Positions 1-63,531 of a DNA stretch of 64,000 nt are shown here, piece after piece. The notes beneath the pieces are model-generated. The model saw only the letters and a list, made by a program, of their open reading frames with translations. It did no database searches and was not told the origin of the DNA. The stretch covers positions 1,240,001 through 1,304,000 of the forward strand of contig OZ017757.1 of assembly GCA_963969365.1 (NCBI GenBank), in the 5' to 3' direction. A program made the translations under genes and the position numbers. Origin of the DNA: Asterochloris sp. CNOR1. Its lineage: Eukaryota > Chlorophyta > Trebouxiophyceae > Trebouxiales > Trebouxiaceae. Each line of letters opens with the position of its first letter. Within the stretch, counting starts at the first letter, position 1.

Positions 1-349
1 CCGTTCTATCTTGACGTCAGAGTCCTCCTGTGGTTCAGGCAAATTCTTTTGGTACTGCTGAATGAGGCCACTGCGGTCCTCAGTGCTTGACTCCTGACCT
101 GAGTGCACTCGACTGATGCAGCCGACCTCTGAAGGCCCTGCCAGATCAAGGCACTGTGGCGTATCAACAGCAGCTCAAGAGCATTGCTGGCGCTGACATC
201 TTGCAGAGACTCAGCCCTTGGATGACGGTGCAGGTGCTCCTTGAAGAAACTGCTGGATGAGGGCACAATGATGGAGAAGCAGTAGCATAGCAGCAGCACT
301 AGGGCTCCTGTTCTGCACACTCAAGACCATATATATGCTGACAACGCAG

Positions 350-1477
350 GCGCTCTCTGGAGGCACTGCTGGACGAAGGCACTGTGGTGCAGAAGCAGAT
401 GATCGACGGCTTGCAGGCAAGCAGCGGCAGATGCTTAAGATCCTGGTGCAATGCACACCTGCTCGTCATCGGTGCAGCCTGCAGTCATCATGCGCAATGT
501 GGTGCATAAGCATTTGGCTGCTGACGTCCAGGCCAGTAGCTGCAATGAAATTTGTCCCCCTCCATCACAGGGCCATGCAGATTTGCTTGCCACTCCGGCC
601 ATGTGCTCTACTCAATTGGGCAGTAGTGCTCAAGCAGCTGGCTGCTGACAGCAGCTGGGGCCGCAGAGACAGCCTGTCCCTTGTTGCAAATCTCCTTTAG
701 ATTTTCCTGCAGAAATCCCTGGGCCACAGGTGGTCGCCACGCATATCACTTGTCAACCAACTTGGATGAGAATTTCACTGAACTGCGCAGACTCAAGCCT
801 TATGGTTATGTGCAGGGCCTGCTGAGGTACCTACACGACAAAGGCCACATGAGCAGCTCAGCGGACGGGGTGCCCTCCCAGGCTGCCTCACTGGACCAGC
901 TGCTGCAGCTCCTGCAGGCTAGCCAGGTGTGAGGAAAGCCCCATCATCTGCTGCCTTGGGAGCATTGACAGCCACTCCAGCTGGCTTGTTGCAGCAGATG
1001 CTGGGCATTGCTTGCAGATGCTGCTGAAATTTGTTGTTGGCTCCTGTTCTGACTGTGCCTGGCGCTCAAGTTGGCCCACCTGCCATGGTTGAGCGGACCT
1101 GCTAAGCCCGCTCCAGGCTGCCTCAATGCTGCAGATATTCCTGTGTGAGAGGTGCTCGCCTGATTTGAGGCGGCAGCATTCAGCCTCCGTCTGCACTTGC
1201 CAGCAACAAAGCCGCACCTGAGGCCAGCAGGCAGTGCGGCAGTGCACCTCACGACTGAGGGGCACTGGTGGCCCAGCTAGCCTGACTGTGTCCCCGCAGT
1301 GTTTGTTTTCTTCTAGCAGCATGCGGAGCTGCTCCAGGCAGCCTGGCTGCCGCAGCTGCTGATGCTTGGACTTGCTGCAGGCCGCCAGTGAGGCTGCGCT
1401 GGGGACGAGAGGGCGCAGCGTGCGCCGCTCGGGCAGCCTCGTGAGCCCGAGGAGCACCCTGAAGGGCACACGCACAG
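350..1477 (+). CDS. Isolated exons, gene not identified (5' part of kinase gene or upstream gene)
   Basis: Three stretches look like spliced exons. Exon 350-416 follows acceptor cgcag and reads RSLEALLDEGTVVQKQMIDG, then ends at CAG|GCAAGC, a GC-type donor. Exon 713-926 follows ctgcag, includes LDENFTELRRLKPYGYVQG and LLRYLHDKGH, and ends CAG|gtgtga. Exon 1381-1477 follows ctgcag, is Ser/Arg/Thr-rich (GRSVRRSGSLVSPRSTLKG) and ends ACAG|gtgcag. The phases do not chain directly (350-416 ends in phase 0 while 713 starts in phase 2), so exons are missing between them. The helical, charged character suggests a coiled-coil or regulatory N-terminus. They may belong to the kinase gene whose chained exons begin at 3355, or to a separate gene. 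I do not recognise a family. The 1480-3354 stretch holds no other exon I can support apart from decayed copies near 3140-3275. Confidence 0.4.
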
Positions 1478-3139
1478 GTGCAGCTGATGCTGCAGCAACA
1501 AACCCTTGCCAGCTGATTGAGACATTGGTCACCAGTAGCAAATTTGACTGCCACAGGCTGGGTTCTTTATGCAGTCCTAGATATGAGACACAGAGCCAGT
1601 TGCCACCCTGCTGTTGAGCCAGTGCTGCTTGTCATCTTTAGCTGTGCCAGAAGCTGGCTGTGAAACAAAGCCAATTGCCACGTTGAAGTCACGTGCAGAG
1701 GCCAGCTGTTCAACCCCCGCGCCCGTGGTGCAGGAAGGCCAGATACATTCCTGCACCAGTGCTGCCTGTAGATGTGTTACCCTTTCTGTTGGTGCTGTTG
1801 CCAGCAACCAGATGAAGCTGACGCAGGCCATCTCAACATTGTAAAGCTGAGCAAAGAAGGTGTCAGTGGCTGCCTGAGCTCTGTTGCTGCTGTTGCAGGA
1901 CGCGCTGGTGCTGCTGGAGGGGCCCACCTGTTCTGTCAAGCTGTGAACTATGGCAGCCTGCGAGTTGGTCTTGAGCCGTCACGCTTGTGGTGCAGGGGAT
2001 CAGATGACGCTGGAGCAGGCCATCCCTCCTGTTGAGCTGGGGGGCAGCAAGTCTGCCAACAAGAGCGGCTCTGTGGACGACAGCCTGCCAGGTGCAGCAA
2101 TAACCTCTTTGTGTGGGGGTAGCAGGGACAGCTGCCTGCCCTGCGTACCAGTCCTGGGGAGGTGCTGAAGTTGCCCTGATGGAGCACGCCTGCCCACAAG
2201 CGCAGGGCTGGGGACAATAGCCTGTCAGGTGCAGCGCTGCGCTTGTGCTGTAGCCTGTGCGTTGGGCTGGCCGCTAGAGGGCTGATAGCTGCATGCACGT
2301 GCTTACCTGCTTGGCCAACTGCCGGGCATGAAAGGGAGCTCTGAAACTGATAGCCACATGCACCTGGTCTGCATGGCATAGCCAGGTGCTCCTTACTCAG
2401 TCTGTCGCTAGAAATGGCATGGTGCATGTCTCAGCCATTTTTGAACGAGCATGCAGCAGGATGCAAGTTGCTCAGTGTCTTGCTGGATACAGCAGCACCA
2501 GGGCGCTGGGCTCACTGCTGGGCCTAGCAAGAGCCTATCAACGCTTGACCCCAATGCTGGAAGTGTTGTCCAGGGCTTTCAGGTGCTTGCCAGAGGTAGC
2601 ATCTGGGCTACTTAGCTGTCCAACGATGGTGCTGCAATGCTGCCAGTGGATGCCTCCAGTCGGGTCAACAGGTGCCGCACGGGATGTCTTGATGGCACAG
2701 GTGACCTATCAAGGCTGCTCTGCCCCATCTGCATCCGGGTCGCACTGCCGATTTGAGTTTGTGCAAGTGCAGGCTCCCGCACGGCTCAGAGGGCGGCACT
2801 CAGGCGCGACAGGACGGGCACCAGAAATGCCCTGTCGCCCGTCCGCGCTGCAGCACGCTACATGCTGCCCAAGGTGCGTCTGGCAGCCCCCTTCCGCCGC
2901 CACACGCTGATAGGGTTGGGGCTGGCAGTGTGGGCGGCGCATTCCCTCAGCTGGCATCCAGGAAGCTGAGTTTAGCCAAGCTGCAGTCTATGCTGCTCCC
3001 ATTTATTGCAGTGCTGCAGCCCCATCTTGGCCAGCGCGCCCATCAAGCTTTCTGCTTAGGCCTGCTGAAGCCCTGACACCAGCAAGTGAGCTGCCCTTGC
3101 CAGCACATCAGCGGTTTCATCGCTGCGGTTCTGGCTGCT

Positions 3140-3275
3140 GCAGGAAGCATTCCAGCGCAAACCAGCATGCTTGGCTAAGATGCGGTTGTGCCCTGCTTCA
3201 TTCCCTCTTGCTCAGTGCAGGGGCCCGAAGGAGCTGCTGGCCCAGCAAATGGTGTTGCAGCGCGAGCTGAAAGAG
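3140..3275 (+). repeat. Decayed copies of exon 3355-3510 start
   Basis: Segments at 3140-3165 (attccagcgcaaaccagc) and 3218-3275 (ggtgttgcagcgcgagctga) resemble the first part of the kinase exon starting at 3355 (tattccagcgcgagccacag). Both sit in the preceding intron, in the same orientation, and are no longer open in a useful frame. Confidence 0.6.
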
Positions 3276-3354
3276 CACCACTTCTTGTACTAGACCTGGC
3301 AGCTATAGCTAGTGGCCTCGCAATGCCTTGAGAGGTTTTGTCTTCACCCTGCAG

Positions 3355-6300
3355 GCTGTATTCCAGCGCGAGCCACAGGAGGAGCACATGTTCAGGGCTC
3401 GCTCAGTGCCCCGCGGCATGTCCCCTCAGCGCAGCCCTGTAGCCGAGTACATCCGCACAGGCAGCCGCCCATCTTCCCCTGCCACCAGCCGCACGGCATC
3501 CGTCATTCCTGTGAGCCTGGACACACTGTACCTGTCCATTGTGCCTGGGCCAGGTGCATTGCGCTTGTGCACCAGCAAGCCATCCATTTGGACCTGCCAT
3601 AAGCTGCATGGCCAGTGAGCTTATCCATGCCATCCGCACTCCCCAACCTGGCCTGTGCCAGTCAGCTGCCTGCATCTGTTGGGCGCAGGAGCCCAGCAGC
3701 GGCTGCGCCCCATCCTTCTGTGCAATCAGCCCGCATTGCCATGATGCAGCATGGTGGCCATTGCAAGCAGCTGCAAGCCTCTCTGACTCCTGCGGCCCCG
3801 TCTGCATTGCCAGGTCTGCAGCCAACACAACCACACGCCCCCCACCCCCGCCCCCTGCCCCGCCCAAGACGGCCTTTGTGGGTCCTGTGAGCCCAACCCA
3901 AGCTGCGCACTTGTGCCAGAATTGCGTCATTGGGCTGCTCCTCTCCGCTGATCAGGGCTGCCATGGTGCTTGGGCAAGCCCACCAGCATGGCACAGAGCT
4001 GTGCCCACTCTGTGCCAAGATGCTGTCATGATCAGGTCGGTCTGCTCTTTGCAGATGTCCCCCAAGGAATCGGCCAACAAGAGGAGGGCGCATGAGCAGC
4101 AGCTCTTCTCGGATGCACCTGGAGAGCAGTTGATTGGGGCATTCAAGGAGCCATCTGACAATCCCTTGACATGGCCCGCCTACGAGGACCAAGCCCACCA
4201 GACCGGCAAGCAACAGGTGGGGTCAGCGCAGGCTGCCTGCCAATACAGACCCTAGCTGAGCAAGCTGAGACGAGATGATTTCTGCATGAGGGCATGTCGG
4301 CAAACACAGCACTGAGGGGTGTCCTCCTGCCTGCAGGCTGTCCATGCAAGCCAAGGCAGCACCTGGCACGCAGAGCAAGACATGGAGGCCTTCTGAGCAC
4401 GTGTAGTTTACAATCATTGACTGCTTATGAAGAAGAACACAACAATCTGATTGCTGAATCACTTTGCGATCACTCCATATGGTCAGTAGTAAAGGGGGCA
4501 CTGTGGGACGGACACAGCGCGTGTGCCCCAATTGGCGTTGAGCCTGTCACTGCTGCAGCCCATCGATTGGGGGTGTGCCAGTCGATGGCCTTGCAGGGCA
4601 GGGATCGGGAGCCTGATAAAGTTCCTGGGGCCGGCTGCACAGTCCTGCCAACCAACTTCAGCCTTCAGAGCTTCAAGAAGGGCCTGCGCAAAAAGCTCAG
4701 TCTCCCAAGATCTCACAACAGGGGAAGGGATGAGCTGGCTGCAGAGCCAGCCCCAAATGGCAGCTCCAAACACCAGCTCTGGCGTATGGGCAAAGGCCCA
4801 CTGTCAGCTCTGCGCCGCAGGGGCCCCTACAAATCTAGCAGGTGACCCTTTTCTCCAGATTGCATCGTGGGCCTGCTGGAGCCTGTGCAGCTGGCAGCTT
4901 TGCCAATGTGAGGCTCCGCTCAGCATTCAGCGACGTCATAGCCTCATGCACATGCGCCTGGGTTGCTTCAGAGGGCGGGTGAGCAAGCAGTGTGCCCCTT
5001 GGCGCATTGGTTGGCTGCATATGATGACGTCACAATGGTATCGTGTGTAATGCCAGCTTCTCGTGCTTCCCTACACATCAGGCTGAACGTCTGAAGCCCA
5101 GCTTGCCGCTGTTGCAATCAGCTTTGGAGTGCCTTCCAATGGCTCATGCTCCACTGCTCCCTGTGGTGCAGTGCCAGCTCCATCTATAATATTCAGCGTC
5201 AGGAGTCTCAGTTTGAGCTGGCATTCGATCAGGCCATGTCGCCGCGGAGGTACGGCATAAGTGGACTCCTGACCCTGCCAGCCTCAACCTCAGCACTTGC
5301 CTGCCGCCTCCTGGCCTCATGCCTGCACAGACTCCTTGTGCCAGCTAGCCCCTTGCCCCGGCAACTGCTGCCACAAGCAGGTGCTCGCAGATGGGATTGC
5401 TACATGTACAGCCTGGCTGTCTGGCTGCAGGCATGCCTCCGTTGACATGATGTGGCGGGCAACCTGCGATGCGGGCAAGGTTCCTGCCCGCATCGACAGC
5501 ATGCGCAGGCTGGCATCTGAACTGGTAAGCAAGCAGTGTACCCACAGCTGTGCTGAGGTCTGACAAGGCAAAGCTGCATGGGAGAGCATCCACGGATGTG
5601 TGCTGGCCTGGCCTGCCTCCAGCATATGAAGCCTCAGCTTATGTGTTTCGCTGCATGACCTGCATCAACAGGGCCGGTCTGCATACTGTGGCGCTGTGGT
5701 CAGCTGTGGCTTTTGCTGGAGGCATGTCATGTCTGGCAGCTGCCTCCTCTCATGGCAGTGACAACAGCATTCAGGCAGAGGGCCCCACTTCCCTGCTGTT
5801 CCCAGCAAACCGCCCAACATGGGTGAGGGGGTCCCTAGAGTGGCACACCTGCGCAGCGTGCTGGCTGACGCCCAGCTCCGGGTGCCTGCAGGATGCCAGC
5901 GGACTGGATCGCCGGTCCTCCCGTGACTTTGTCACGACAGACCGGCTGGAAGTGAGGAAGGCACTGGGGCGAGCCATTGTCAACAGGTGTGCTGGGCTGT
6001 GCTCTGCAACACATATCACCTGCCGGCCTCCCGCCCCTGCTGACAGACGGTGCCTGGTGGTGAATTTCATGGTGCTGGGCAGCAAGCAGCCTTCTGCTTG
6101 TAGTCTGCCATCCAAGCCGCGTGATTGGGCCTGCCTGCAGGCAATTGCGGGTGAACGCCCTGGATTACACACAAGACTACAGCTATCCAACATGCTGGCC
6201 CGCATACAGCAGTCACGTCATGGCTGCCTGCAGGCAGTACCTGGTGGTGAAGGCCCTGGGTGCTGGGCAGTATGGCAGCGTGAAGCTGGTCGTGGATGTG

Positions 6301-9300
6301 GCCGACCTGCAGCCCTACGCGCTCAAGACGGTCAGCAAGATGCAGCTGCAGCGCTCCCTGCGGCGCATGCGCTCCTCCTTGGGACGCAAGTCGCTCAGTG
6401 GGTGAGCCCCGCCCTTCTGCTCCTGTCAAGCCGGCGCAGGGCAGGGCAGTTCCTCACCAAGCCAATGCTTTTGCTGTTCGAGGGATCCCAGTGCTGCATG
6501 GCAGGCTAGGACTACACCAGGGCTGTGTACCACAGCATGCCCGCACTGGCTGGCACAGTCTCACCGCATGCCTGCACTGGCTGGCATGTTCCACAGGGCC
6601 GCCTCTGTGCCTGCCTGCAGATGCCTGCTCACCTGGGTGTATGAGACCCGCTTATCGATCCCCGGCCTCTCTTGCAGCCTGGCCTCAGCCTTGCATGCTG
6701 CCAGGATGGGGAAGACGCAGACCAGAGGAGGCAGTTGCCCCCATCATATCTCAACAAGCTGCATCTGTGAAGGACATTATCCAAGACCCTAAGCCCAGAT
6801 GCTGCCCTTGCAGGATGGTGAGCACGCAGCAGGCAGAGCAGGCATTAGTATCGTCAGACGCGGACAGGCCCGCCTTGGGGGAGGCCCCTGCAGCTGCCAG
6901 CAGTCTGGGGTTGACCTCTCCCCCGCAGCAGCCAGATGCGGGGGTGGCAGTGGCCACAGAGATTTTTGGGACGCAGCCCTCCCTGTCCCGCTTTGGCAGC
7001 AGCCGCCTGCGCAGGCTGACGACTGCAGGCTCCAGCTCGCCCATGCCCATACCAGGGGCCGGCCCTGGCAGCCCAGCAGCCGCTGCAGCTGGCCTCACCC
7101 CTTTCGGCTCCCTCCCCAAGCTGGGCACACCCCGCTCCCCCAGTCGCGCCCCCTCCCGTGGCGCTCTCATGCAGCTGGGGACCAGCCCAGCTGTCAGCCG
7201 TGGCCAGTCCAGCCCTGCCACCAGCCTGGCCACAGTGTCCAGCCTGGGCAGCGCCACTGCTGAAGAGGCAACACATGACGGCGAGCAGGCAGCCGGAGCC
7301 TTCAGCCAGGAAGCAGCAGGCGGGCGCGGGGATGTGCCGGCTGCAGCTGAACCAATGCAGCTGCCCAGCCCTGCCCAGAAGCTGCAGAGCGGGCTGCCCC
7401 TGCCGCCGATCATGCCGTCGCCCTTTGCAGCTCTCACGGGGGTCGGATTTTCGCCGGTGGCCAGCCAGGAGGCCGACAGCTCTGCCTCAAACTCTGGCAA
7501 CAGCCCAGGAGGCATGTCAGGAGGGGGGCCACCTTCTGGGGCTCGGCAGATGCTGCAGGGCAGAACCATGTCCAATCCTGTCATGGTGAGCTTAGCCGTC
7601 AGGGCTGGGCCAGTGGCAGTGGCCTGAGCCATGTAAGATCCGGGTGCAGGGTGTGATGTGCAGCATGTGTGCTGTGGGCCCCAGCCGCTGGCCTGGGTGC
7701 ATGGCTGCTGCCCGCGTGAGGCTTCCTGTGCTGCAGGCTCCCTTGCCCCCACAGCGCCACTGTGACTTGGCTCCTGGCTGCTACTTCTTGGCTGCGCCGA
7801 CCCCGACTAGTGTTACTGCAGGCTTCCTGCAGTCCCAGCCGCCCCAGTGATATGGTGCGCGAGATAGCTGTGATGAAGAAGCTGGACCACCCCAACATCG
7901 TCAAGCTGTTTGAGGTGAGCCACGCGGGCCAGCCAAGCCATGGGGTGAGCCACAAGGACTGCTCTGGCCCTCCAGGCCACTGATCGCCTTCCTGCGATGA
8001 GCACTCCCCTGTCTTAAGGTCTGTCACGCTGCACCTCATGACAGATGGACACCAGCTTCTGCGCACTGAGCGTGTCTGCTGCACTCAGACTTGTGCGCAA
8101 CCTCACCGCGCGGTCTGCTGGCACCCTGAGAGGCTCACAGCCAGCGCACAGTGCATAGGCCACGATGACCCAGCACAGACAGCCAACTGCCGGCAAGATA
8201 TCATGTCTGGGGTTTTGAGTCCTGCACAGCACTCTCACAGTTGCCTGAAGTTGGCTCCTGCAGGGGATCAGTGTCGGTACAGGGAGTCTACAGGCAGTGA
8301 CGGAGGCTCCAGGCACCAGCGTATGCACAGCAGTGCATACCACTTTTAAGAGTGTCTGCGCTGGGCCCTGCAGGTCATTGCTTGGCACCGCCGTGGTCCA
8401 AGCAGTAAGCATGTGCTGCCTGGGCCTGCTTCCTGCAGGTGATTCCAGATTCCAGCACAGACAGCCTGATGATGGGACAATATCATTCTTTGGGCCAGCC
8501 ACCAGCAAGGATGCCCTGAGAGTCCGAGCAGTGCAGAGCATTCGCGCATGCCACCCGCAGGTGATTGATGACTCCAACACGGACAGCCTGCTGCTGGTGA
8601 TGGAGTATGTGGAGGGGGGCTCTCTGGAGGCACCCTACGATCGTGCCACCCGGCGCTGGGATCCCGTGCCCGAGCCCAAAGTGCTCCGCCTGTTCAGAGA
8701 GCTCCTCAAGGTACCAGTCTGCCTGACTCCTCCCTGCCCTGAGCTCTCTGCTTCCTAGCTTTGCCAGCTTTGTGACTCTGTGCCGACAGAGCAGCGTTTG
8801 GAACCTGCGGCAGGGCCTGTTCTGCTCTGACAGACCCAGGAGCCCCTTCTATACACTGGCAGCGCATGCGTTGGAGAGCCTCTCATGGTCTGCAGAGTAT
8901 CTCATCATGGTTCAGGTTCCTGTTGAAGTTGAGGATGTTGAGTCCTCCAGCTTGAGGTGCTTGTGACTGTCGGCAGACGTGTGACTGTCTCAGCTTGGCT
9001 CATTCCATCCTGGAAACCCTGCACGGGAAGCCACGTACTTTGCAGTGGCAGCACTGTGGGCTGCAGCTCATTGCGGCAACTGTGCCTGCAGGGACTGGAC
9101 TACCTGCACTACAACAAAGTGCTGCACGGCGATCTGAAGCCAGCCAACCTGCTGCGCAGCAGCGATGGCCTGGTCAAGATTGCCGACTTTGGCAGCGCGC
9201 TGGTGTACTCAGAGGATGAGGGCATGTTTGAGGGGGCTGTGAACGGGACGCCGGCCTTCCGGGCGCCCGAGACGCTGACGGCTGCCTGCAAACTGACCCG

Positions 9301-12300
9301 CAAGGTTGGGGGGGTCTTGGGTGCCTGCTTGCTGGCATGCATGCATGTGCTTGGCACCAAGCCTGGAGAAAGTGTTGTGCCAGCTCATGTGCCACTTGTG
9401 GGAACAGGGGTTTGCCAACACGCTAAGCCTGCAGAACCTCTTTGTGACCTTGGAACACCTTTTCGGCACACGCAAAGCCTTACGGTGCTCACTACTCAAC
9501 ATTGTGCCCCTTGACATATGTCACGTCTTGGCAGCAGGGACGTGCCAGTCATTTCTGATCTGGGCAGCTTCCTGGCATCATGCTCTGCAGGGCTGTGCAC
9601 AGAGAGCCTCACTGCCAGCTTTTTCACCCTGCAGGTGGATGTGTGGGCGGCAGGGGTGTGCCTGTACGTCTGGATCTTTGGGCAGCTTCCCTTCCAGGCG
9701 CTGTCCATGTTGGACATGTTTGCAGCCATCCGCACACAGGCCTTGGCCTTCCCGGAGAGCCCAGCTGCCTCAGACGAGGTCAAGGATCTCATTGGGCAGG
9801 TGTGCTCACCGGGTTGGTGTGACTGTGCTGTGTGGCATGCAGCCCCACTGGCCCACCCAGGCAGTCCCCAACACACCTCATAGACCGAGTGTGTCAATGC
9901 TGCTGTGGTTTTGTCATGTGGCATGCTGCCCTTGGCCTGTCCAGGCCGCGCAGTCGCCGCCTCACAGGAGGTCAAGAAGCCTCAAGATCAGGGCCGGGCT
10001 GCCGGTCAAGAGTGGTGCAGGCCCAAGATTGTCGCTTCTGCAGATCATGCATCAGATCTTCACTGTGGTCTGTGCTTCCGCCACTGGACTGGGTTGCCTC
10101 GGGCTTGTTCTGTGTATGTCACAGGGCAGCAGTCCGTTCCCTGGCTGCTGTGCCGCTGCTGAGTAGGGAGCCAGCCTCTGGGCTGCTTGGTCATGGCCTG
10201 GTGGTGCATGTGCTGGTGTGTCTCACGCAGGACTGAACGCTGAAAGGAGCTTGCTGGCTGCTGCGCAGATGCTGACGAAGGACCCAGCTGCCAGGGTCGG
10301 GCTGGCGGCGGTGATGGGGCACCCCTGGGTGACCAGCGGGGGTCAGGACCCGCTGCAGAGCATGGAGCAGGCTGGCCAAGTGGTGAGAGGCGGCTCTGCG
10401 CTGGCACCACCACGTAGGGGCTGCAGAACCCTCCTAGTTCGCCTTGCATTGTGTCAGGAGCCCCTGCACAGCCTGGAGCAGGCTGAGCAGGAGGCGAGGG
10501 AGTGCACCAGCCTCAGTGTGCCCTGCTGGGGAGGCTTTAGAGAAATCACTGCAGCAGTGCTTCTGGGTTGTCTGGTGCCTGGCAACATCCTGGTGGCGGT
10601 GTCAGATGTCCCCTGCTCCCTTGTAGGCAAGGTGCATGTCAGGCAGACTGCAAGGCAGGCAACCTGCACCTGAGCTGACTTGGCCTCAGGTGCAGAGGGC
10701 ACGTCTTGCTTGCCTCTACCGTCATGTCACTGAGTAGGATGCAAGGTTCTGGCTTGCCAAGTCTGTGCTGTCACTGAGAGGGTGTGTGGACCTGCATGCA
10801 GGCAGTGCAGGTGACACCGCAGGACATGCGGGCAGCCATCAGCCGTGAGGGACGCTCAATGGTGCCCATCCTGCAGTCCATCTTCCAGGTCTGCCCTGCA
10901 GCCTTCCGTGCTGCATGCCAGTGCAGTGCTACATGGTCATGCACAGTGTGTCCAGCCTGAAGCACATCGTCCAGGTGTGCCTGCTGCGCTCTGCACTTCG
11001 TTCTGCTGCGCGCCAGGTCTGCTTGGTACGCAGCGCTGCCACCCCCAAGTGAACATGCGGTGCACACCGGCCCAATCCTCCGCTGCCCTGATCAATGCTT
11101 CATGCTGGGCTTGCATGTTGCTCTCAGTGCAGCCCATGTCTGGCTGGGTGGTGGTCCCGCTTGTGCTGTGCGTGATAGGCCCTCCAAATCCTGATGGACG
11201 GACACATTCCACAGTCCTGCCCCGTTGCTGCAGGAGGTGACCATCCGCAAAGGGCAGACCCTCGGGCTATACGGCGAAGAGGGTCGCTCCATCTACCTGC
11301 TGGCCCATGGGCACGTCGATGTGGTGATGGTGCCCCCCCGGGGGATACTGCTGCAGGCCAGCAGTGAAGCGGGCAGCACAGTGAAGGAGACTGATGAGGA
11401 GCTCAGCGCCCCAGACATGTTTGGTGAGATAGGAGGGAAGTCCTGGCTGGCCGGGCATGCTGCCTGGTCCGGCATGGCACAGTCAGGACGCTGCAAGCCT
11501 GCAGTCGGGCAGTGTGAGAGGCTGCTGAGTGAACACTGTTGAGCCTTTTTGTCCCAACATGTTAGGTGAGCCTGGCCAAGGGGGAGTTCCCCCTGGCTGC
11601 TTGGGTGCGCTGGGTAAGCAGCAAGGAACCGGCAGAGTAATTCTCGATCCTGCATGGCAGAGACAGTTTGTTGCAGGGACTGTGGGGGACCATCAGGCAT
11701 GGGGCAGGGCAGGCAGCCAGGGAGGCTGATGAGGATTCCCTCTACAATGTTTTGTCAAATTATCTGGTGCTGAGCGCTTGGTCCCACTGTTGTGGGGCTG
11801 TGTGTGGTGAGCTGTAGGACTGCTGCTATTCGACTCTTGGGCCTCAATGGTCTCAGCTGCTGATGGAATGCACGTGGCGGTCTGAACCCAGTTTCCTGGT
11901 CAGCGGCAGCTGCCCAGCCTGTGCAAGCGGCTGGCAATATGAGAAGCATACAAATCTACCACAGGCGATTGCAGGGATCCCCACCTGCTCACTGAGACAC
12001 AGTGCATGACCACAGCCCTGCCCCTCAAACACAGGCTATGCGCTGCAGACATGATGTCGGCCAAGTCGGTGACGGACATGGTCAGCAATGCGCCCCAGCC
12101 CATGCACCTGGGAAACGGCCAGATTGTGCTGTCCACCAGGGGACCTGGAGAGTTTGTTGGTGAGCTGGGCCCCCTCGCAGGCCTACCTGCCACGTGTGAG
12201 CAGTGCAGGCTGAATACAGATGCTGCAGCAGGCACCTGCAGTGCAGACTTCCTGCAGATCTGGCTTGCTGGGCTGGGCTGTGCTGGTTTCTGGATGAACA

Positions 12301-19300: not shown

Positions 19301-22300
19301 CTTGGGCAGTGACGAGCTGCCTTGTGACAAGTGCTGGCAAGTTGTGCAGTGATGGGCAGCAAGGCTAGATATGGAGCGCAACAATGTGGGAGCAGTCCTG
19401 CCTCACCTCTCTGGTGTACTGCTGTGCCACCACCTGCAGGTTGGCCCTTGCAAACACGAGCTGCTCGGCCGTCAGACCATGCTCCTTTAGCAGAAGGGGC
19501 ACCAAATACCGCTGCAGCAAGGCAAGCACGGTGTCAGCAGGGTGGGCATGCATCTGCATTGCAGCTGCACATCAAACAAGACCCAGCAAAAGATGCAGAA
19601 GACGTCCCAAGGCCGAGAGTGCACTTGCATACCCGGAAGGACTGAAGCATCCATGCAGGACTCCAGGACATCCAGAGGTGCGAGAGACAGGCACCGAGTG
19701 CACAGGTGCTAAGCTGAGAGCACTTGGCACGCTCATCCAGGTGCCTCACCTCGGCGATGGCCACCTTCTCGTCAAGGGTGTAGCCAGGGAGGGTGATGAC
19801 CTCCAGCCTGTCCAGCAGGGGAGGTGGCACCTCTGACAGGTTATTTCCAGTCGCCACAAAGGCCACCTGCATGCAGGAAAGGCCCAGTGTATCATTTGTG
19901 GCCGACATCCTCCTGACAAGCGTGTTGCTGACGCATGTTTGCCATAATTTTGGAGTATTGGCCACTGGCTATAAAGGCCACTTGCAGGCAGGCAGATGAA
20001 CAGCACTGCTAGCCTTTGGCAAGGTCCATTGTTTCAGACGTGAGTCTGTTGTGGAGAGAGTCAGCACCAGGCACTGCTGTCCAGCAGCAGGCAAGTCGCT
20101 GCAGGTACAGGCAGCATGCGCCTCGCCCACCAAGCTTGGTAGTAAAGGCTTGGCCACCCATGTGTCAGGCATGGGCTATGCACTCACCTTGCTCAGTCGA
20201 CGAGGCATCACTAATAGTTAACATAGCCCGCTACAAGAACACGGCCCGGTAGGTGCTGCGAAGGCAAAAACCCCATGAAGAGGCAGCCCCTGTTTTCACA
20301 AGAGCAGGCGGCAGTGCTCCAGCCCACCATGCTCAGTGTGCAAAGGGCACTGCTTTTCAACAGCTTCACTGCGCGCTGCAGGCGCAGACAGCATGCATGT
20401 GCTGCTGCCCAGGGTTCTGCTTAGGACCTGCACTTGCCTTGTCTAGGTAAGAATCCTCTGAGCAAGTGCCCATGACGAAATTGCTTTCGCTGTGCCTGAC
20501 GGGTTTGGCACCCCAGAACCTACAGGTGCAGGCAGCAATGCACCAGCCCACCTTGCTAAGGTCAAACGGCACTGCCAGATAGTTGTCCACAAAGGCGTGG
20601 TTTTGCTCCGGATCGAACACCTCCAGCAGAGCTGCAGAGGGGTCGCCGCGGTGGCTGGCGCTGCCCATCTTGTCGATCTCATCCAGCAGTAGCATCGGAT
20701 CCCTGACCCCTGTGCGCCGCAGCCCCTGCAGGCAGCCGACACCTGATACATGAGCAGGAGCCTTGAGCAGCAGCATGGGATGCTTGCCCCTGAAGCCGTA
20801 GCCCATGCGAGCCGTTCACAACTGCACACACACAAGGCTTTGCAAGAGGGCTGGCCATCTTGTCACTGTTGCGCAGCAGCAACGCTATATCAGGTGCTTA
20901 CAGCACACAGGAGCCAGCCATTTCAGGGTGCTAAGCCATGATCTGGGTGTTCAAGTGGCAGAGAGCGTGATGCCTGTGGCATTCAAGGCCCTGCACGTTG
21001 CACATCTGTGTTAGCTCCAGCAGCAGTAGCGTGATGTCACAGGCCACCATGTCCTCTAGGCCCTGCACTTGACGTTCACCCTTCCCTCGGAGAAAGACAG
21101 AGGAGGTACAATTTCATACCAAACACAGCAGAGGTGCAGGGTTGGCCTTCAGGTCTCGCTCCTCTGGCCTTAAAAGGAAGCCAAAAGCAAGACTGGATGA
21201 CAGCACTTGCCTGAATTACTCTCCCTGGCATTGCTCCAATGTAAGTCCTGCGGTGACCGCGAATCTCTGCCTCATCATGTACGCCACCCACTGAGATCCT
21301 GCAGCAACAGCAGCAGCAAGTTTGCTAACTTTGCACAAAGTCAAGACCTCTTGTGTGGCGCCCAAGCTGAGCTTTTCTGAAGGTCTAGAGGCTGTCCTGG
21401 CCGTCTGCTGGTGCATGATCTGATGTCCGTTGCAGGCTGTCACAGTCTGTATCCACTTAACAAATGCTAGCTGCTGCCTGTAGACAGCAGCAAGCTTCAC
21501 ACCCACTGCAACAAGGCAGCTTCTTCTAGCCAAAGGGAAGCTTCTCGCGACAAAATGTGAGAAACTTGAAGGGACCGACCTGTGGAAGGGCCGCTGCAAG
21601 ACCTTGGCAATGGACCTTGCCAGCGTCGTCTTGCCAACACCTGGCGGCCCTATGAAGCACAGGATAGGGGCGCTTGCATCCCAGCCTCGCAGGCGGCGAA
21701 CAGCAAGGTACTGAACAATGCGCTCCTTAACCTGCAGAGGCAGATTTGCGATCTAGTAAACATCACATGTCAAGCAACCAGGAGCTGGGTGATGCGCTCT
21801 TAGCCAGCAGACATTTGAGGGCTACTGAGCTGCTTTGAACGAATGTGCAAACCTGCGAACAATTTTCATTTTCAGGTGATAACACTCCGTCACTTGACCT
21901 GCATATGAGCACACCTTGTGGGGTGCTTGGGCAGGCCATCAGCAGTGTACATGTTGGCAGCAGCCAGGGACATGCACAGAAGGAAGTCCCAGAAGTGCCA
22001 CCTCTGGCCGCCTCAGCATGACAGCGCTAACTACGTAGGAAAGTGGCTTGTGCTGCTCACCCTGTCCAGTCGCCGTGCTCATGAACCAGATGACAGCTGC
22101 TCGTTGAAGAAGATCACCAGCAGAGCCCCTATTAAAAAGGAGGCAGCCAGACTCAGAAGCCAATGCAGTGGGCTGGCATTGAGCTGTTACTACGCCACAC
22201 AATTGCACACTTTACTGCTGCCCCTCCTCCCAGCAAAAGCAACAAGCAGATCCAGGTATTGCCCACCCTGTCCAGTCCGAAATGCTCCTTGTCGAGCAGG

Positions 22301-30553: not shown

Positions 30554-30716
30554 TGAACTGCAGCCCCGGCCATTGCATGCCCCCTTTTCAGAGAACGCAT
30601 CCCTGTAGCAATTTTGCCCTGCTTTACAACATTGTACACGCTCCTCCACTCTAGAACTGTGCACACAAGCTAAGATGCATCACTCAACTTACATGTTAGA
30701 TGCTTGGAGTTCTAAT

Positions 30717-41362: not shown

Positions 41363-45022
<3,660 letters not shown>

Positions 45023-48331: not shown

Positions 48332-51300
48332 ATGAGGCGGTGCTGCTCCTTCAGGAGGCCTCTGCTGTTGACGGGCGTCTTGGGTCTATCTGCAGCAGTC
48401 TTCGTGAGTGCATATAATCTCACACACAACTCGTGCAAATGATGTCTCACAGGTTCAGGCGGCTGCAAATGAGATGCTGATGTTTTCGCAGGTGGTACTG
48501 CTGCAACTCCATGTTTTTGTCAAACAGAATCATGATGCTTTGGAGAGGTGAGGACCCTCTGACATATACAGTTGCACCACGCAGCAAGTCTGGCAGCATG
48601 CATACAGCTGTACTCAATTGGCCACATTGGTGCAGGTCGTTTCGCCAGCGGCAACTGATGAGTACCCTGTCAAATCACGACCACCACCCGCTGCAGCAGG
48701 ACATCCAGAACCAGCCTTTTGAGTGGACACCCCGTAATATTGGCGTTCTCATCGGGTCATGCCTGGTGAGCATTTGGTTGTGGTTGTCCAGCCTCTCAGG
48801 CTTGTTGTGATGGCAGGGAGCATCACACCGCCATGCAGGAGGCAGCCACAGGTACGGCAGCGCTGGTTTGCAGGGCACCGTCAGGCTGCACTGAATGGAA
48901 GGCGCTTGCATGCATGCAAGAGCTTTTGGCGATGTTGCATGTGTGGGCATGCGCCATCAGGGCTGCCTGGCTTGTTTCTGCTTCCCGCTGCCGTCAGCAG
49001 CATTGCATTGTCCTGTGTGCCGGCAGCAGCGTCTGAGTCTGCTGTAATGACATGAAGCAAGCCTGCTCAGCATGACATAGAGATGCTTGCCGCACTGTAC
49101 GCCAATGGCACAGGTTGCAATGCATCATGAAACACAGAGACAGCCTCTCCAGCTTGGCACAGGGGGAAGAGTGCTCAGCTGAAGCTCTGCCAGCAGGCAG
49201 GCACACCACGAAGCCCTTCCTATTCAAAGCTGTCCTCACTGACTGCAGTGTGCGCTGGCAGCCAACTCTGCAGGCATTGGAGGGGGCCCGCTGTTCATGA
49301 GCCTCTTCAATGTCGGCTTTGGCTTGCCAGTCAAAATCTGTGTGGGGCTGAGCCACTCAGTGGTCACGGTGTCAGCCATGGCCTCAGTGCTGTACGGCTT
49401 GCTCGAGCCTCACCCGAAGTACAGCAACCGCCCCCTGGCTGACATCACCATCGCGCTGACCTTCAGCCCTCCTCTGCTGCTAGGCGTGTCGACAGGCAGG
49501 TTTGGCTGCAGTTTCAGCTGCTATCTGCCTTGCTGTTGTGCAGCTCACTGCTGAGCAGTTTGCAGGGCCAGTTCGGCTGCAAGCCCTGCTGCAGCTTGGC
49601 AAGCTGTCATGCAGCTCTGTGCTGAGTGCCTCGGTAGGCAGCTTCAGCACTCCCAGCTGCGATTTGCTTTTTTGTGCACAGCTTTCCCATCTACACAGTC
49701 AGAACCCACACCTGATGTGCTGTTGTTCTTGCCAAATAAGCTGGGTGAGGTCTCTGTGGTGTCAGCAGCAGCAGAGCTCACTGCTCACACCTGCTGACTG
49801 AGGGCACTGGCTGCCTGCAGGTGTCCTCTGCGTCAATGTGACCCCGGTCTGGGCCCAGACCCTGCTGCTGTCTGTCCTGCTGCTGTTTGTCATCGTCAAG
49901 ACCTTCGGCAAGGCAGTCAGGCAGTGGCAGGCAGAGCAGAAGCACCAGCGGAAACAGCTCCACCAGCAGAGCTCTGCTCCCCGAAATACAGACCAAGACG
50001 TTGAGCATGCCGAGGCCCTGCTCAGCGAGCCAGAGGACAGCGTGGAGAGCGAGTCAAGTTACAACCTCAAGGAGAGGCCCATTGATGCCCACTTTGCCAT
50101 TCATGAGGAGGTGTTCCACCCAAGACACCACAAGCACCTGGTGGCCCACAAGAGCAGGTCAGGTGTAACTTTGCTGTGTGCTGGTGATGGTCGCTCCTTG
50201 AAGCACCAAAGAACACAGGGGCCATGAGCAGCCTGCCTGGGCTGAGCTCTAGACCAGGGCTGCGGGCAGGAGATGCGCATCTTGGGGTCATTGATCTGCA
50301 GCCTGAACAGCCTGCACTTGGAACATTGCATTTGACACCTTTAGTGCTCCAGGGCAGGTGATGCCTGCAGTCGATTTGGGGACAGACTTGCACATTCCGG
50401 ATGTTTGACGTGTCTGCTGCGGGTGGATACTTGCCTCACCTGGCATTCAGCAGCCTGTCACCTGGCTACAGCGTTTGTCGGTGTGACCCTAGCACCGCTC
50501 TGCAGGTTCATACCCTCACAGGACGTGCTGCCCCCACTGGCCTGGGGGCGTGATCAAACCTGCCAAACCTTTTTCTGGGACCTGAGGCCTAACACCTTTT
50601 AGGGGAATCTGCGGCCCACTGGTCTGCAGGTTCAAGCGTTCACGGGAGACGCTGCATGGGGCTGCCACTGGCCTGGAGCATGCCCTGCAGCGCATCCCCT
50701 GGGGAGAGCTGCTGCAGCTCATCGTCATCTGGGCAGGCTTTGTGTCCCTGCAGCTGCTAAAGAGCCAATGGAAGGATGGCGGGAAGCAGTACTGGCTGGT
50801 GTTTGCAGCACAGGTGAGTGTCTGCCTCTCCTGCTGCTGGAGGTTGGCAATCTGCAGCAGTGGGCGCTTTCAGCGGTGCAGGTGGAGTTTTGCCGTATTG
50901 CAGCTGATTGCTGCATCTGGCTAATGCAAGGAGCACTGCAAGTTTGCACGGCAGTACATTTTCCCATTGAGGTGGAATCATGCTGCCGACAGTGTAGACC
51001 TGCTGCAGATAGTCTCCTGGCTGGCTGCTTTGCCTTCTGGCTGGCTGTTTCACCACTAGTATCTGGGTGCTGCAGCAGTCAGGCTGCCCATGCTGTCATT
51101 TGCCCAGCAATCCTACACTGCAGGATCCCTCAGCTGACTGTTGCAACATGACTTTGGGCACTGAAGTGGTCTGGTCGCCTGTGCTGCCATTGCTGTGCGG
51201 TGCAGGCGGCCTTCCTGCTGGCTGCCTCGACCTTCTACATCTGGCGGCAGGCCCAGACAGCCAAGACAGACCCAGACCGGCTGGATCCAGAGCTGCACCA

Positions 51301-54630: not shown

Positions 54631-54649
54631 TTGGACACCATGTAACGGG

Positions 54650-54689
54650 AGGTGCACGCCTACAAAACGAAGTGCGTAGGCGTGCACCT
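54650..54689. repeat. Perfect 14-bp inverted repeat (hairpin)
   Basis: The arms aggtgcacgcctac (54650-54663) and gtaggcgtgcacct (54676-54689) are exact reverse complements with a 12-nt loop. It lies 20 bp downstream of the last stop of the F-box/LRR-like locus and immediately after a TGTAA. Confidence 0.95.
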
Positions 54690-55576
54690 TTGCACTCGGA
54701 GTGTTAAATAGGCACAGCGCTGGGCCAGTGAGCTAAGGTCTGCTGCGGGACTAGGCATTTGCGCTGGTCCTCAGCTGATGTAGGAATGGCATCTCCCCCT
54801 CATGTAGTACAACTTAGGCTGTCCTGCAGGCAACGCATCTGCCTCCTGCAAGCTTGGGCCTGCTTAGTGCTGCACCAGCACAGAAGTCTTAGCTCCACAA
54901 GTTTGCGCTCTGCCACACATCACTGCTGCAGGCCATGGTGGTGAAGTTTGGTATACAAAGAACTCCCCATGTACAGAGCGACGTCAAGCTGCTGGCATAC
55001 ACAGCGCACGAGCATTCCCTGGGCTGCTCCAGGCCACAAGATTTGCCTGCTGTTTTGTGCTGGCAGAGGCACTAAAGAGCGCAGAAGGGATGCCTATGGC
55101 TTCTCCAGCAGCAGCTTCTGAGAGACAGTGTGCTGCTGTTGTGCGAATATGGTCCTAAGCAAGGCATGCTACTGTAATTGGACTAGTACCTGCCCTGACA
55201 GCCTTGTTTAGCTTGCCTCGACATTTGTAGTTCACAAACTGGAGCATTGTAACAAACAGTCTTGAACATCCAGGCATCAAACCTGCCATCAATGTCTTCA
55301 ACGTGTGCAATATTGCCATAAACGCTTCAATGTGTTTCCATATGACCAGCATGGCATGGTTACAGCTGGTTTGTGAAAAGAAACCAGCTATTTATGCCAA
55401 CTTCAAGGCAGCCTAGTCCTCTTGAAAAGCTAACTCATTGCACAGCTCTGTGGCTGCTACTCACATGCACAAAGGGCAGACAAACTATGTACCCCACTTC
55501 AAAGAGGCTCAGGTACTTTGGAGCCTCTGTTGCTCATCCAGCTGCATGACATGCCAGGAGAGAGGGGGCTGTGCAC
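54690..55576. other. Intergenic region after the hairpin, before the kinase 2 stop
   Basis: I see no coding exon here. It is more AT-rich than its surroundings at about 55150-55450. The likely 3' UTR of kinase 2 occupies the right part; the minus-strand TGTAA (ttaca at about 55360) could be its polyadenylation signal. Confidence 0.4.
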
Positions 55577-61500: not shown

Positions 61501-63531
61501 CTCTGACTCAGACAGCCTGCCTGGGCGCTCACCAGTCTCTCAGCATCGAGCGCTGCAGCGATGGCAGCCGTCACGATGCCACGCGCTGCCTGCAGAGCCC
61601 ACACGATCACATCAAACTTGACCCGAGTCTGTGCAAGAGGCACACACCTGGATGTTGAGGGCTTGCTCTAGCAGCAGCACCATCTCGGAAGAAAGATCCT
61701 TCATGCAGCCTGGTCCCTAAGCCATTGGCAGCAGCGCAACAGCTGCTGAGGCAGCTGTCAAGCCTCAGAGCTTTGCCGCGGATGTGGTAAACCCAAAGCT
61801 GACAACCTGGACAGAGGCAGTGACATGCTGCTGCAGGCAGCCCACACAGCTGCAGGAGACACCCGAATGCAGCTCTAAAGCATATGCCAACCACAATGCA
61901 GCTCTTACCAGCACAGCTGCCCTCTCCTCTGCAGCCACCGCCACCGCCAGCTCTGGCAGCGCAGCGGCAGCTCCCTGCAAGACACGATGGCTTGTTCTAC
62001 TGTGCCAGCATCACATGGGAGGGTGCGACATGTTGTGATCACCATGGCATGCACCTGATGCCCCATGACAAGTGCAACACAGCTAAGCTGTGCAAGCGCC
62101 CACAGGCAAGCAGATCAGAGCTCAGACAGGACAGGACGCTCACCAGAAGTTCGGCCTCCCCTTCCTCTGCGGCCAGTGCCACTGCCAGCTCAGGCAGGGC
62201 TGCTGCGGCTGCCTGCATTGCACAAAGGGCATAAGCTGACGCCCCACGCCAAGCACAACGCAGCTGGGTTGTGCAAATGCCCGCAGGCAAGCATACCACA
62301 GCACAGAGAGGACAGGAGGCCCACCAGCAGCTCAACCTCCCACCCATCTGCAGCGCGGTCTGCAGGTCCCTGCATGACATGACGGGCCATTCACCTCTGC
62401 CAGCATCACATGGGCGAGTGACGACATGTTGTGGTTACCATTGCATGCACCTGATGCCATAAGCTGATGCCCCACGCCAAGCACAACACAGCTGGGCTGT
62501 GCAAGCGCCCACAGGCAAATACATCACAGCCCAGACAGGACGGGACGCTCACCAGGAGCTGGCTCCCCCAATCCTCAGCAGCCTGGGCGGCCGATGCCAC
62601 CGCCTGCTCAGGCAGGACTGGTGCCGCTGCCTGCAGTGCACAATAGAGAGCATGGCTCCGTAGGAAGAAAAATGTTGACGCTGATGGTCATGATGTCATG
62701 CCCCGTGAAACAGGCGCTGGAGAACAATGACGAACATGCCCAATAGGCACAGGCAGTGGAAAGTGCTGCCGCAGGCAGCCCTTCAAGCTGCAGGAGACAC
62801 CCAGATGCAGTTGTCGAGCATTTGCCATCCACAACACAGCTCTTACCAGTTTGGGAGCAGCCTCCTCCTCTGCAGCCACCGCCCCTACCAGCTCCGGCAG
62901 CGCGGCTGCAGCTCCCTGCATGACACGATGGGTTGTCCACCTCTGCCAGCATCATATGGGAGGGTGTCGACATGCTGTGATCACCATGGCATGCACCTGA
63001 TGGCAAAAGCTAATGCCCCACGCCAAGCACAACACAGCCGCGTTGTGCAAACGCCCACAGGCCAGCAGACCATGGCGCAGACAGGACAGGATGCTCACCA
63101 AGAGCTCCGTTTCCCATTCCTCTGCTGCCTGGTCTGCAGGTCCCTGCACGACACAATGGGTTGTTCATGATTTCAGCCCCCTGGCATGGCATCAGAGCAC
63201 ATGCTTCACCTGGGTCAGCAACAGACAGACCCTCACGAGGTGCAAAGCTGCATGGCTCAGCATGCTGTCCCACAAGCCTGCCGCTGTCACATCAAAGGTG
63301 CAACAATGCACCATGGGCGGCCGGCTATCCTGCCTTTCAATTCAATGCAAAGGCTCTCAGCAGACAACATGCGGCATTTACCAAAGCAGGGCAGGACAGC
63401 TGAGCAGCCCCCCACCCCCACCCCCTCCCCCCTGGGGGATCCCGGCCCCTGAGGTCACGGCTCACCATCAGATCTTGAAAATCCTCTCGGAGCAAAAGGT
63501 CCGACTCCAGGGTGATATCACTGGCTGACAT
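55577..63531 (-). CDS. Protein kinase with exon-array N-terminus and long coiled coil
   Basis: Eighteen exons chain in phase to 776 residues: 63531-63466, 63143-63099, 62915-62847, 62630-62553, 62369-62325, 62212-62144, 61974-61909, 61698-61648, 61628-61533, 61115-60258, 59992-59819, 58868-58771, 57846-57741, 57270-57161, 56800-56698, 56378-56292, 56093-56022, 55714-55577. The start MSASDITLESDLLLREDFQD is clear. Residues ~23-130 come from six repeated exons. Residues ~196-481 form an Ala/Gln/Leu-rich coiled coil. The kinase domain has glycine loop LLGAGTYGSV (~489-498), Lys in VALKH (~512), Glu in RAEAEINRRI, catalytic loop LVHCDIKSNN (~598-607), KVIDFGNTK (Asp ~628), YMTPEM in place of APE, DVWALGATVIDVA and MPQNRPTMADIAEEM. 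The weak APE and NRPTM-type tail suggest the TKL or receptor-kinase-like group, cytoplasmic here since no membrane segment is seen. The loop has HCD, a non-RD type. Whether all array exons are spliced in together is not shown by sequence. Confidence 0.85.
61909..63143 (-). repeat. Array of six tandemly duplicated phase-0 exons in kinase 2
   Basis: Two exon types recur. Type A has 15 codons: 63143-63099 (GPADQAAEEWETELL) and 62369-62325 (GPADRAADGWEVELL). Type B has 22-26 codons: 62915-62847 (GAAAALPELVGAVAAEEE..), 62630-62553 (AAAPVLPEQAVASAAQAA..), 62212-62144 (AAAAALPELAVALAAEEG..), 61974-61909 (GAAAALPELAVAVAAEER..). Every copy keeps an AG acceptor and a GT donor and is an exact multiple of three, starting and ending in phase 0. 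The introns are repeated too: ctgccagcatcacatgggag-like text at 62005, 62398 and 62943, and ccccacgccaagcacaac at about 62242, 62470 and 63016. Confidence 0.9.

Follow-up and report, generated by a model that had tools for sequence, protein, structure and literature searches.

Local duplication that leaves a decayed copy in an intron is a process already known in kind. Its closest described relatives, in the portions of the sources cited here, are internal gene duplication, sometimes with creation of an intron (Gao and Lynch 2009; cited in PMC3443670 and PMC4974935), the short local copies called 'doublets' (Thomas et al. 2004; described in PMC2671141), the tandem and partly tandem insertions of rice (Vaughn and Bennetzen 2014; as described in PMC7407515) and the fill-in duplications by Pol alpha-primase at experimental breaks with 43-bp overhangs (PMC8355091). 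In the sections of the Exonize study cited here, fewer events are generally reported in lower eukaryotes (PMC12343006), and for relatives of Chlamydomonas the driver of conspicuously long introns is, in the part cited, described as unknown (PMC8226300). A literature search of titles and the starts of abstracts, with subscription papers mostly outside it, returned no exon-derived relics in green-algal introns.

The window (the whole stretch of 64,000 nucleotides that was analysed) was combined with 20 loci on 18 large contigs, giving 755 exon/adjacent-intron pairs in 264 kb; gene models were our own predictions made without RNA, and some genes are fused in them. Each exon was scored against 200 pieces from introns of other genes, with all exon-versus-intron controls drawn from introns of this one genome. 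By this measure 72 of the 755 pairs reached p<=0.005 (about 4 expected), and 55 reached SW>=40 (0.29 expected, and 0 in the exons' own inverted introns). As the inverted-intron control was limited to 100 draws, which puts p<=0.005 out of reach, the strand contrast was read at p<=0.01, where 89 same-strand and 4 inverted pairs were found among the 755. The share of pairs at p<=0.05 was 18.1% for the adjacent intron (n=755), 5.1% for the next (n=680) and 1.9-3.6% for ranks 2, 3, 5 and 8, the effect being absent from two introns away onward. Furthermore, p<=0.005 was reached by 10.2% of the 196 window pairs and 9.3% of the 559 pairs from the 20 other loci, in line with a first-pass annotation of the window that had called the pattern genome-style. 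Among kinase loci located via Pfam, outside the gene-finder training set (L002-L008), 10 of 58 pairs reached p<=0.005 and none of the seven loci lacked a pair at p<=0.01; of the 34 predicted gene fragments that have five exons or more, 30 contained one or more local direct duplicates. The check set by that annotation, similarity to own introns against similarity to introns of other genes, was thus run on this sample with a favourable outcome. Exon echoes in introns are real and widespread, and the earlier interpretation of them was half right.

The same annotation had listed 16 intervals as intron copies of neighbouring exon ends. When these were aligned to up to 600 bp on each side and compared with up to 1000 random equal-size regions of the sample, 15 matched nearby DNA beyond chance, 14 of them at p<=0.002 and 50501-50560 at p=0.011 (for five tiled intervals p is the best among 2-12 tiles, uncorrected). 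The claim is unsupported for 3140-3275, which was at chance level against such regions (p=0.1155). The copy in 45-290 is genuine (223-282 resembles 339-398) but lies outside every predicted gene; the best match of 37208-37365 is intron to intron, and 6127-6160 is a further copy at the exon beginning at 6234 (6131-6160 resembles 6224-6256). That copies usually include the splice site also held, with the facing junction crossed by 41 of 66 exon-intron alignments (those among the 72 significant pairs with score >=34). An Rfam scan of the window gave no match at gathering score.

Table 1. Duplicated segments and associated gene models in the window
Position	Strand	Feature	Support
2181..2235	+	intron copy of 2043-2098 (end of exon 1996-2091 and donor), newly found	alignment
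6037..6104	+	intron copy of 6224-6293 (acceptor and start of exon 6234-6401)	p=0.002
7833..10382	+	protein-kinase exons 7833-7914, 8561-8710, 9092-9304, 9635-9799, 10269-10382 (predicted)	own gene model
8396..8475	+	intron copy of 8522-8597 (intron end and start of exon 8561-8710), offset 122 bp	p=0.001
9488..9572	+	intron copy of 9608-9690 (acceptor and start of exon 9635-9799), newly found	alignment
10453..10498	+	intron copy of 10342-10387 (end of exon 10269-10382 and donor), offset 111 bp	p=0.001
19962..19992	-	copy of 19847-19877 (spans start of exon 19866-19750, minus strand)	p=0.001
25820..25872	+	intron copy of 25990-26042 (acceptor and start of exon 26004-26171), offset 170 bp	alignment
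27650..27690	+	intron copy of 27559-27599 (end of exon 27436-27587 and donor), 85% identical, offset 91 bp, newly found	
28843..28929	+	intron copy of 29104-29188 (acceptor and start of MscS-like exon 29138-29403)	alignment
29502..29639	+	intron copy of 29314-29448 (end of exon 29138-29403, donor, 45 nt intron), offset 188 bp	
37160..37371	+	decayed tandem array, period about 72 bp, 2.9 copies, entering exon 37359-37586	
38424..38515	+	intron copy of 38323-38413 (near end of exon 38254-38417), offset 101 bp	
41985..42111	+	64-bp unit x2, 94% identical, intron only	
42246..42377	+	intron copy of 42371-42499 (acceptor side of exon 42410-42608), offset 123 bp	
43540..43597	+	intron copy of 43665-43722 (inside predicted exon 43620-43910), offset 125 bp	
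44038..44312	+	two relics (44038-44138, 44205-44312) of polyprenyl-synthetase exon end (43809-43913)	
50501..50545	+	weak copy of 50625-50676 (start of exon 50630-50813)	p=0.011
61648..63553	-	tandem exon and intron array in kinase-domain gene (predicted)	own gene model

Several of these features are placed by protein domains. The kinase gene at 7833..10382 carries relics in three of its four introns between exons, and its match to Pkinase PF00069 (aa 776-995 to profile 43-263) is unbroken, which is consistent with the modelled splicing; the intron with relic 28843..28929 sits within an Msl2-3_C match (aa 437-517). Relic 29502..29639 has GC where its source donor has GT, and the polyprenyl-synthetase exon end and both of its relics all terminate in CCAG|GTG. 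Part of the first of these relics (44079-44135) was called a 57-nt exon by our gene finder, a call that shows cryptic-exon potential rather than use. The most similar tandem pair of the window, among those of at least 60 bp, is 41985..42111. The array at 61648..63553, with predicted exons of 45, 69, 78, 45, 69 and 66 nt in gene order, would represent an alternative fate of duplication in which the copies are retained as exons; genome-wide search found one further locus for it, a diverged paralogous array on contig C15.

These observations are very probably explained by direct, local and mostly tandem duplication of short segments, without exon preference and masked by splicing. Short segments would be frequently duplicated in direct orientation, mostly in tandem or close to it, the copies typically being separated by 60-250 bp; where a unit straddles a splice junction, splicing would use one junction and the other exon end would stay within the intron. 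The protein would be unchanged, the intron copy would decay neutrally with the exon copy under selection, and the exon echoes would be the tolerated, visible part of a general duplication process. Break repair is probably the source of the duplications, the molecular step perhaps being fill-in and end joining of staggered breaks, or strand-annealing repair. The basis for this reading, in 264 kb with our own gene models, is the strand excess, the adjacency, the spread over 18 contigs, the neutrality of relics, the constraint on exons, the equal excess among introns and the deficit of young copies.

Orientation is one-sided, as had been claimed: self-BLAST at score >=40 and a separation of 30-2000 bp gave 117 direct matches (27 in the window and 90 in the 20 loci) versus 0 separated inverted ones. 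Mirror hairpins, in which the match is its own mirror, stand outside this zero; 10 were found on recount, scored over both arms, and that at 56486-56576 is the sole one whose single arm would pass the threshold by our estimate. The 20 loci also hold 12 inverted pairs of 30-35 nt that are 70-74% complementary. Matches of 8-mers were in excess at lags from 8 to about 300, with inverted 8-mers flat; BLAST returns pairs only from about 60 bp upward, closer matches apparently being absorbed into the main diagonal, and the 8-mer lag test reveals excess at those shorter distances. Local direct pairs are spaced at a median of 152 bp (quartiles 102-242; n=234). Alignment length was at least 0.9 of the separation in 33 of these 234 pairs and in 4 of the 15 pairs that are >=82% identical and >=40 bp. 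Since the aligned copies are not contiguous in most pairs, some of the pairs may have arisen by local capture instead of tandem repetition.

Local capture through synthesis-dependent strand annealing, giving spaced direct copies instead of tandem duplication, is an unlikely but serious alternative: many of the more similar pairs are spaced too, and copies of up to 619 bp have a vertebrate precedent in the part of PMC2671141 cited here. That part also describes a captured human exon inserted in the opposite orientation, yet no separated inverted copies were found here at score >=40. Moreover, homology fades through the unit: beyond the alignments it persists weakly as far as the expected unit extends (z=6.1 over 196 flanks, of which 14.8% fall in the control's top 5%), and outside the unit it is close to background (z=2.2 over 190 flanks, 3.7% in that top 5%). 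In the few pairs whose junctions were inspected (five), the copies overlap by 5 nt in one and are 0, 1, 4 or 13 nt apart in the others, which may likewise favour tandem duplication over capture.

Detected local duplicates cover 8.4% of predicted intron, 11% of exon and 3.6% of intergenic bases. Relative to shifted annotation, boundary-spanning pairs were over-represented (95 versus 70.1 expected; 0 of 300 shifts reach 95), exon-intron pairs numbered 88 versus 74.9 (24 of 300 shifts reach 88), exon-exon pairs 45 versus 22, intron-intron pairs 91 versus 116 and intergenic-intergenic pairs 7 versus 12.9, the intergenic class being small (18 kb). The annotation-blindness of duplication is thus not clean, several pair classes deviating from expectation. 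The excess of spanning pairs and the shortfall of intron-intron pairs would suit a process specific to exons or their boundaries, for example splice-coupled or cDNA-mediated insertion of exon copies into introns. We consider such a process improbable: the copies include flanking intron sequence that had not been spliced out (45 nt beyond the donor at 29314-29448), which makes genomic DNA the template, and the excess of 8-mers, 1.50-fold between exon and intron, is 1.55-fold between intron pieces, contrary to the proposal of a process aimed at exon boundaries. A pair with one constrained copy would stay visible for longer, which may account for the excess of spanning pairs; together with relics mis-called as exons, this can explain part of the annotation bias. 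Duplication hits introns about as often as exons, and exons are not special. Nor are introns 'built from' exon copies, as had been proposed, an exon copy being detectable in 69 of 426 tested introns (p<=0.005).

The fate of the copies points to duplication followed by neutral decay. Exon and relic mismatch at codon positions 1, 2 and 3 was 0.241, 0.217 and 0.276; in 12 three-copy families, changes unique to the exon numbered 0, 3 and 14 at these positions and those unique to relics 40, 37 and 43, and it is this evenness in relics, with third-position changes in exons, from which neutral decay of the intron copy follows. Exon third positions seemed little changed in pairwise comparison, from which arose the idea that copies were born diverged through error-prone synthesis; the three-copy sets rule this out, the exon being altered at 14 of 139 third positions versus about 21 per relic. 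Splice dinucleotides are intact in 8 of 23 relic donors (about 13 predicted from flank conservation) and in 12 of 20 acceptors (about as expected), and selection against decoy splice sites is a weak hint only. Identity was 0.744 in exon parts and 0.734 in intron parts of 22 alignments, no difference where one was expected, in a comparison that is uninformative because alignments end where similarity fades. A role for the intron copies as functional cassette or mutually exclusive exons is very unlikely: the retained dinucleotides and the exon call at 44079-44135 would fit such a role, but relic changes are spread over all codon positions whereas exon changes are not, and the kinase and Msl2-3_C matches span the introns without the relics.

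Most copies are about 20-30% diverged; near-identical exon-intron copies are too few and young ones strongly deficient. This deficit suggests a past, declining wave, and the duplication rate was, we infer, higher in the past, at odds with recurrence as a steady state. Repeat-induced hypermutation behind the missing young copies was ruled out, as ts/tv is 0.80 and all substitution types are present; CpG cytosines, at few sites, are retained at 57% versus 81% for other C. Introns with duplicates have a median length of 442 and those without 292, longer introns also being likelier to score a match, and the share of bases in duplicates by intron-length quartile is 0.123, 0.035, 0.049 and 0.068. 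It is conceivable, though doubtful, that a past genome-wide episode of intense local tandem duplication in this lineage, now largely over, left a cohort of copies from exons and introns that are similar in age and was a main source of long introns here, perhaps in green algae widely. Of the view that exon/intron boundaries are duplicated with one copy kept, there thus stand the local same-strand copying in many unrelated genes and the neutral decay of the spare copy, and there fall the building of introns from exon copies, the aim at boundaries and the steady recurrence.

Similarity is restricted to the neighbourhood rather than shared with other genes. Transposon or introner insertions as suppliers of similar intron sequence are highly improbable: in the two regions searched genome-wide (the array and one relic region, 28162-30013) no supporting evidence was found, the relic region with its relics matching itself alone, and exons score at background against introns of other genes. 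Chance, base composition or codon bias, to which the GC-rich genome, the CTGCAG/CAGGTG signals common to exon ends and the chance-level interval 3140-3275 might lend colour, has next to no probability, being ruled out on this sample by the adjacency gradient, with real introns of other genes as controls and with both the exons' own inverted introns and the more distant introns of the same gene (two or more away) at background.

For intron length, local and mostly tandem duplication provides a mutational source that can be measured in a compact genome of algal type. Within a single gene, each exon/relic pair serves as its own clock and neutral control: since one copy is constrained and the other free, neutral rate, spectrum and splice-site loss can be read without a second species, and the young-copy deficit makes the timing of intron growth answerable from two or three related genomes.

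The pattern resembles internal gene duplication in that a within-gene copy covers exon and intron and the spare is spliced out, sometimes with a new intron; here, in contrast, most events lengthen existing introns. Gao and Lynch are said to have found such duplications in 8-17% of genes, at other thresholds and hence not fairly comparable with our counts. Intron gain by AGGT duplication differs in register: the exon-end image lies within 6 nt of the intron 3' end, as expected for intron creation, in 4 of 36 upstream-exon matches (about 1.5 expected by chance, as an estimate), so that the attribution of high intron density to duplication was not borne out, although these four may be true cases. 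Doublets and repair-mediated duplications are likewise short local copies ascribed to imperfect break repair, but the studies in the part of PMC2671141 cited here concern identical or near-identical copies or copies within vertebrate transposons, whereas most of those here are about 20-30% diverged. Rice and Pol alpha-primase events, as far as the cited parts of PMC7407515 and PMC8355091 describe them, are similar in that the inserted 10-1000 bp are tandem, partly tandem or drawn from sequence no more than 200 bp away from the break; relative to 43-bp overhangs, the duplications here are mostly longer. Exonize, in the sections cited, likewise reports exon-to-own-intron similarity and 'degenerate exons' across 20 eukaryotes (PMC12343006).

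Copies of exon ends in the adjacent introns exist and are widespread across the sample, which comprises the window, positions 1240001-1304000 of contig C12, plus twenty 10-kb loci (one from each of the 18 largest contigs, with two of these giving a second), or 264 kb in total and ~0.5% of the genome of 56.38 Mb in 21 contigs. Self-BLAST without annotation found 117 direct matches (27 belong to the window and 90 to the other loci, 18 of those 20 having at least one) versus 0 separated inverted ones at scores ≥40 and distances of 30-2000 bp; counting mirror hairpins too, which are scored over both arms, adds 10 inverted. Only one inverted repeat of ≥30 nt was reported in the window (Table).

Gene models were built from the sequence alone by a self-trained hidden Markov gene finder, which converged on 39 genes or fragments (some models fusing neighbouring genes) and 467 introns in the window plus the 20 loci, with donor consensus CAG/GTGAGC and acceptor consensus CTGCAG/G. 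The acceptor motif is very strong across the whole sample (T 0.92, G 0.95 and C 0.97 before AG, then G 0.70), and together with the donor CAG/GTGAG it creates overlapping CTGCAG/GTG signals. Intron length in these models has a median of 319 and a mean of 363. In size, GC and intron load the genome matches what passages of PMC6652019 give for Asterochloris glomerata, a lichen alga (56 Mb; GC 56-62% across 98% of the genome; ~9 introns per gene; gene length 4240 versus mRNA 1400, from which ~316 nt per intron was computed). The RuBisCO large subunit was found on a separate contig, C21.

Each exon end (≤150 nt) was compared with its own adjacent intron and with 200 pieces of the same length from introns of other genes. 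Among the 755 pairs from the window plus the 20 loci, 72 and 137 were found at p≤0.005 and p≤0.05, respectively, the former share being 10.2% in the window and 9.3% elsewhere, and 55 reached SW≥40 (0.29 expected). Against own inverted introns (100 controls each), 4 of the 755 pairs were at p≤0.01 versus 89 on the same strand, and none reached SW≥40. At p≤0.05, the share dropped to 5.1% one intron further away in the gene and to 1.9-3.6% beyond that. In seven kinase loci fetched by homology, outside the training, 58 pairs were compared, 10 of which reached p≤0.005. The first-pass annotation had listed 16 intervals as exon copies in the window; 15 match neighbouring DNA beyond chance, and the one at 3140-3275 is at chance level.

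Exon-derived relics at p≤0.005 were detected in 69 of 426 tested introns, while local duplicates of any kind (score ≥22) overlap 98 of 467 introns and are present in 30 of the 34 gene fragments with at least five exons. By bases, the duplicates detected make up 8.4% of introns, 11% of exons and 3.6% of intergenic sequence. In simulation, 76% of relics are detected at a divergence of 0.2-0.3 substitutions per site, 18% at 0.4-0.5 and ≤4% at higher values, so older events escape detection and the actual share exceeds the one observed. Five of the six window models were submitted to Pfam and all five matched domains (kinase; Lon protease with Pterin_4a; MscS channel with polyprenyl synthetase; TauE; kinase). 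The first kinase match runs unbroken from amino acids 776-995 to profile 43-263 across four predicted introns, three of which hold relics at p≤0.005, as would be expected if splicing follows the model.

Mismatches between exon and relic differ little among codon positions 1, 2 and 3 (0.241, 0.217 and 0.276), and only 11 of 202 alignment gaps are multiples of three. In 12 families that each consist of an exon and two intron copies, exon-unique changes at the three positions number 0, 3 and 14 versus 40, 37 and 43 relic-unique ones; thus the exon is under constraint and the intron copy has been in neutral decay since duplication. The facing junction is crossed in 41 of 66 exon-intron alignments, and the presence of intron flank beside the exon part indicates genomic DNA rather than mRNA as template. 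Origin of the copies from transposons or introners is argued against by a relic region (Table) whose sole match in the whole genome is itself, and by the comparison of exons with other genes' introns.

The observed/expected ratio of CpG is 0.33 for introns and 0.50 for exons (window and 20 loci), and relics keep 57% of cytosines in CpG versus 81% of others; this depletion and loss look like methylation-driven decay. Among the 23 relics of upstream-exon hits that carry a copied donor, 8 still have its GT (~13 predicted from flank conservation), with no such loss at acceptors, a weak hint of selection against decoy donors.

At lags of 60-400, matching 8-mers are 1.50-fold in excess of the far-lag level between exon and intron, 1.55-fold between introns, 2.40-fold between exons and 1.71-fold in intergenic sequence (a small, noisy class), while inverted 8-mer matches are flat at every lag. 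Local direct pairs (score ≥18, <800 bp apart) number 234, versus 3 separated inverted matches through the same filter. Against randomly shifted annotation, 88 exon-intron (74.9 expected), 91 intron-intron (116), 45 exon-exon (22), 7 intergenic-intergenic (12.9) and 95 boundary-spanning pairs (70) were observed. Exons are not a special target, and direct local, mostly tandem duplication without preference for exons is very probably the process. Because of the departures from shifted annotation, which speak against perfect blindness, we stop short of certainty and leave a small chance to a boundary-specific process that places exon copies in introns. Longer recognisability of pairs with a constrained copy shifts the counts in the observed direction and, with the mis-calling of some relics as exons, may explain part of the departures. 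Under local duplication, a unit straddling a junction would duplicate exon sequence and leave the protein unchanged, as splicing would remove the spare copy.

Under a constant birth rate many near-identical copies are expected, yet exact-match counts drop with word length far faster than predicted: exon-intron and intron-intron pairs give S16/S8 of 0.071 and 0.115, respectively, versus 0.54 for uniform ages, and a single divergence of ~0.28 fits the exon-intron decay. Exon-exon pairs are less skewed (S16/S8 0.24; S20/S10 0.35), so recent copies are present in that class. A simulation with uniform ages, copies of random length and exons changing at one-quarter the rate of relics predicted 18.5 relics of ≥90% identity among the 62 detected, whereas 2 were observed. 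A fallen duplication rate or a past wave fits this profile, but fresh repeats may instead have been merged in assembly, which would mimic the deficit of young copies. Rapid loss of young repeats cannot yield it, as each old copy must itself have passed through a young stage.

Some repeats are retained as exons in the gene model. Units of the array in the table recur on C15 at 66-83% identity in non-collinear matches, a possible record of array turnover, and duplication within the array would multiply introns. The earlier proposal that relics supply cryptic exons finds one possible case, the triplicated exon end, where the gene finder called part of the middle copy as exon. Elsewhere, an intronless frame in this otherwise intron-rich genome may be a retrogene, foreign or a contaminant.

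Table. Coordinates of repeat-related and other features (window positions unless a locus is named)
Feature	Coordinates	Strand	Description
Exon-plus-intron unit array	61648-63553	-	Repeats kept as in-frame exons of 45-78 nt in the gene model
Polyprenyl-synthetase exon end, three copies	43809-44312		Each copy ends CCAG/GTG
Relic region	28162-30013		
Inverted repeat	56486-56576		Two 34-nt arms, 91% complementary, 23 nt apart, in a predicted kinase-gene intron
Diverged array on C15	L030 1-3500 (C15:2006801-2010300)		Paralogous to the gene at 61648-63553
Repeat protein	L027 1-1200		Predicted coding sequence repeating with a period of ~90 bp; exons match one another over up to 512 columns
Intronless open frame	L001 181-2304 (contig C19, 43,319 bases)		707 aa; cNMP-binding (two stretches) and protein-kinase domains

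Passages of PMC3443670, PMC4974935, PMC2671141 and PMC12343006 between them already describe duplication within genes and its part in intron gain, as well as local doublets and degenerate copies of exons; the new parts are the density in this one genome, the within-gene evidence for neutral decay and an age profile weighted towards the past.

Homology persists weakly through the expected unit (z=6.1) and is near background beyond it (z=2.2), and in five inspected pairs the copies overlap by 5 nt or sit 0-13 nt apart. Spacing, direct orientation, flank homology and these near-abutting pairs fit a tandem duplication that would arise through repair of staggered breaks, a route reported for rice (in PMC7407515) and for Pol alpha-primase fill-in (PMC8355091). 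Capture of nearby sequence may contribute, as just 4 of 15 more similar, longer pairs abut.
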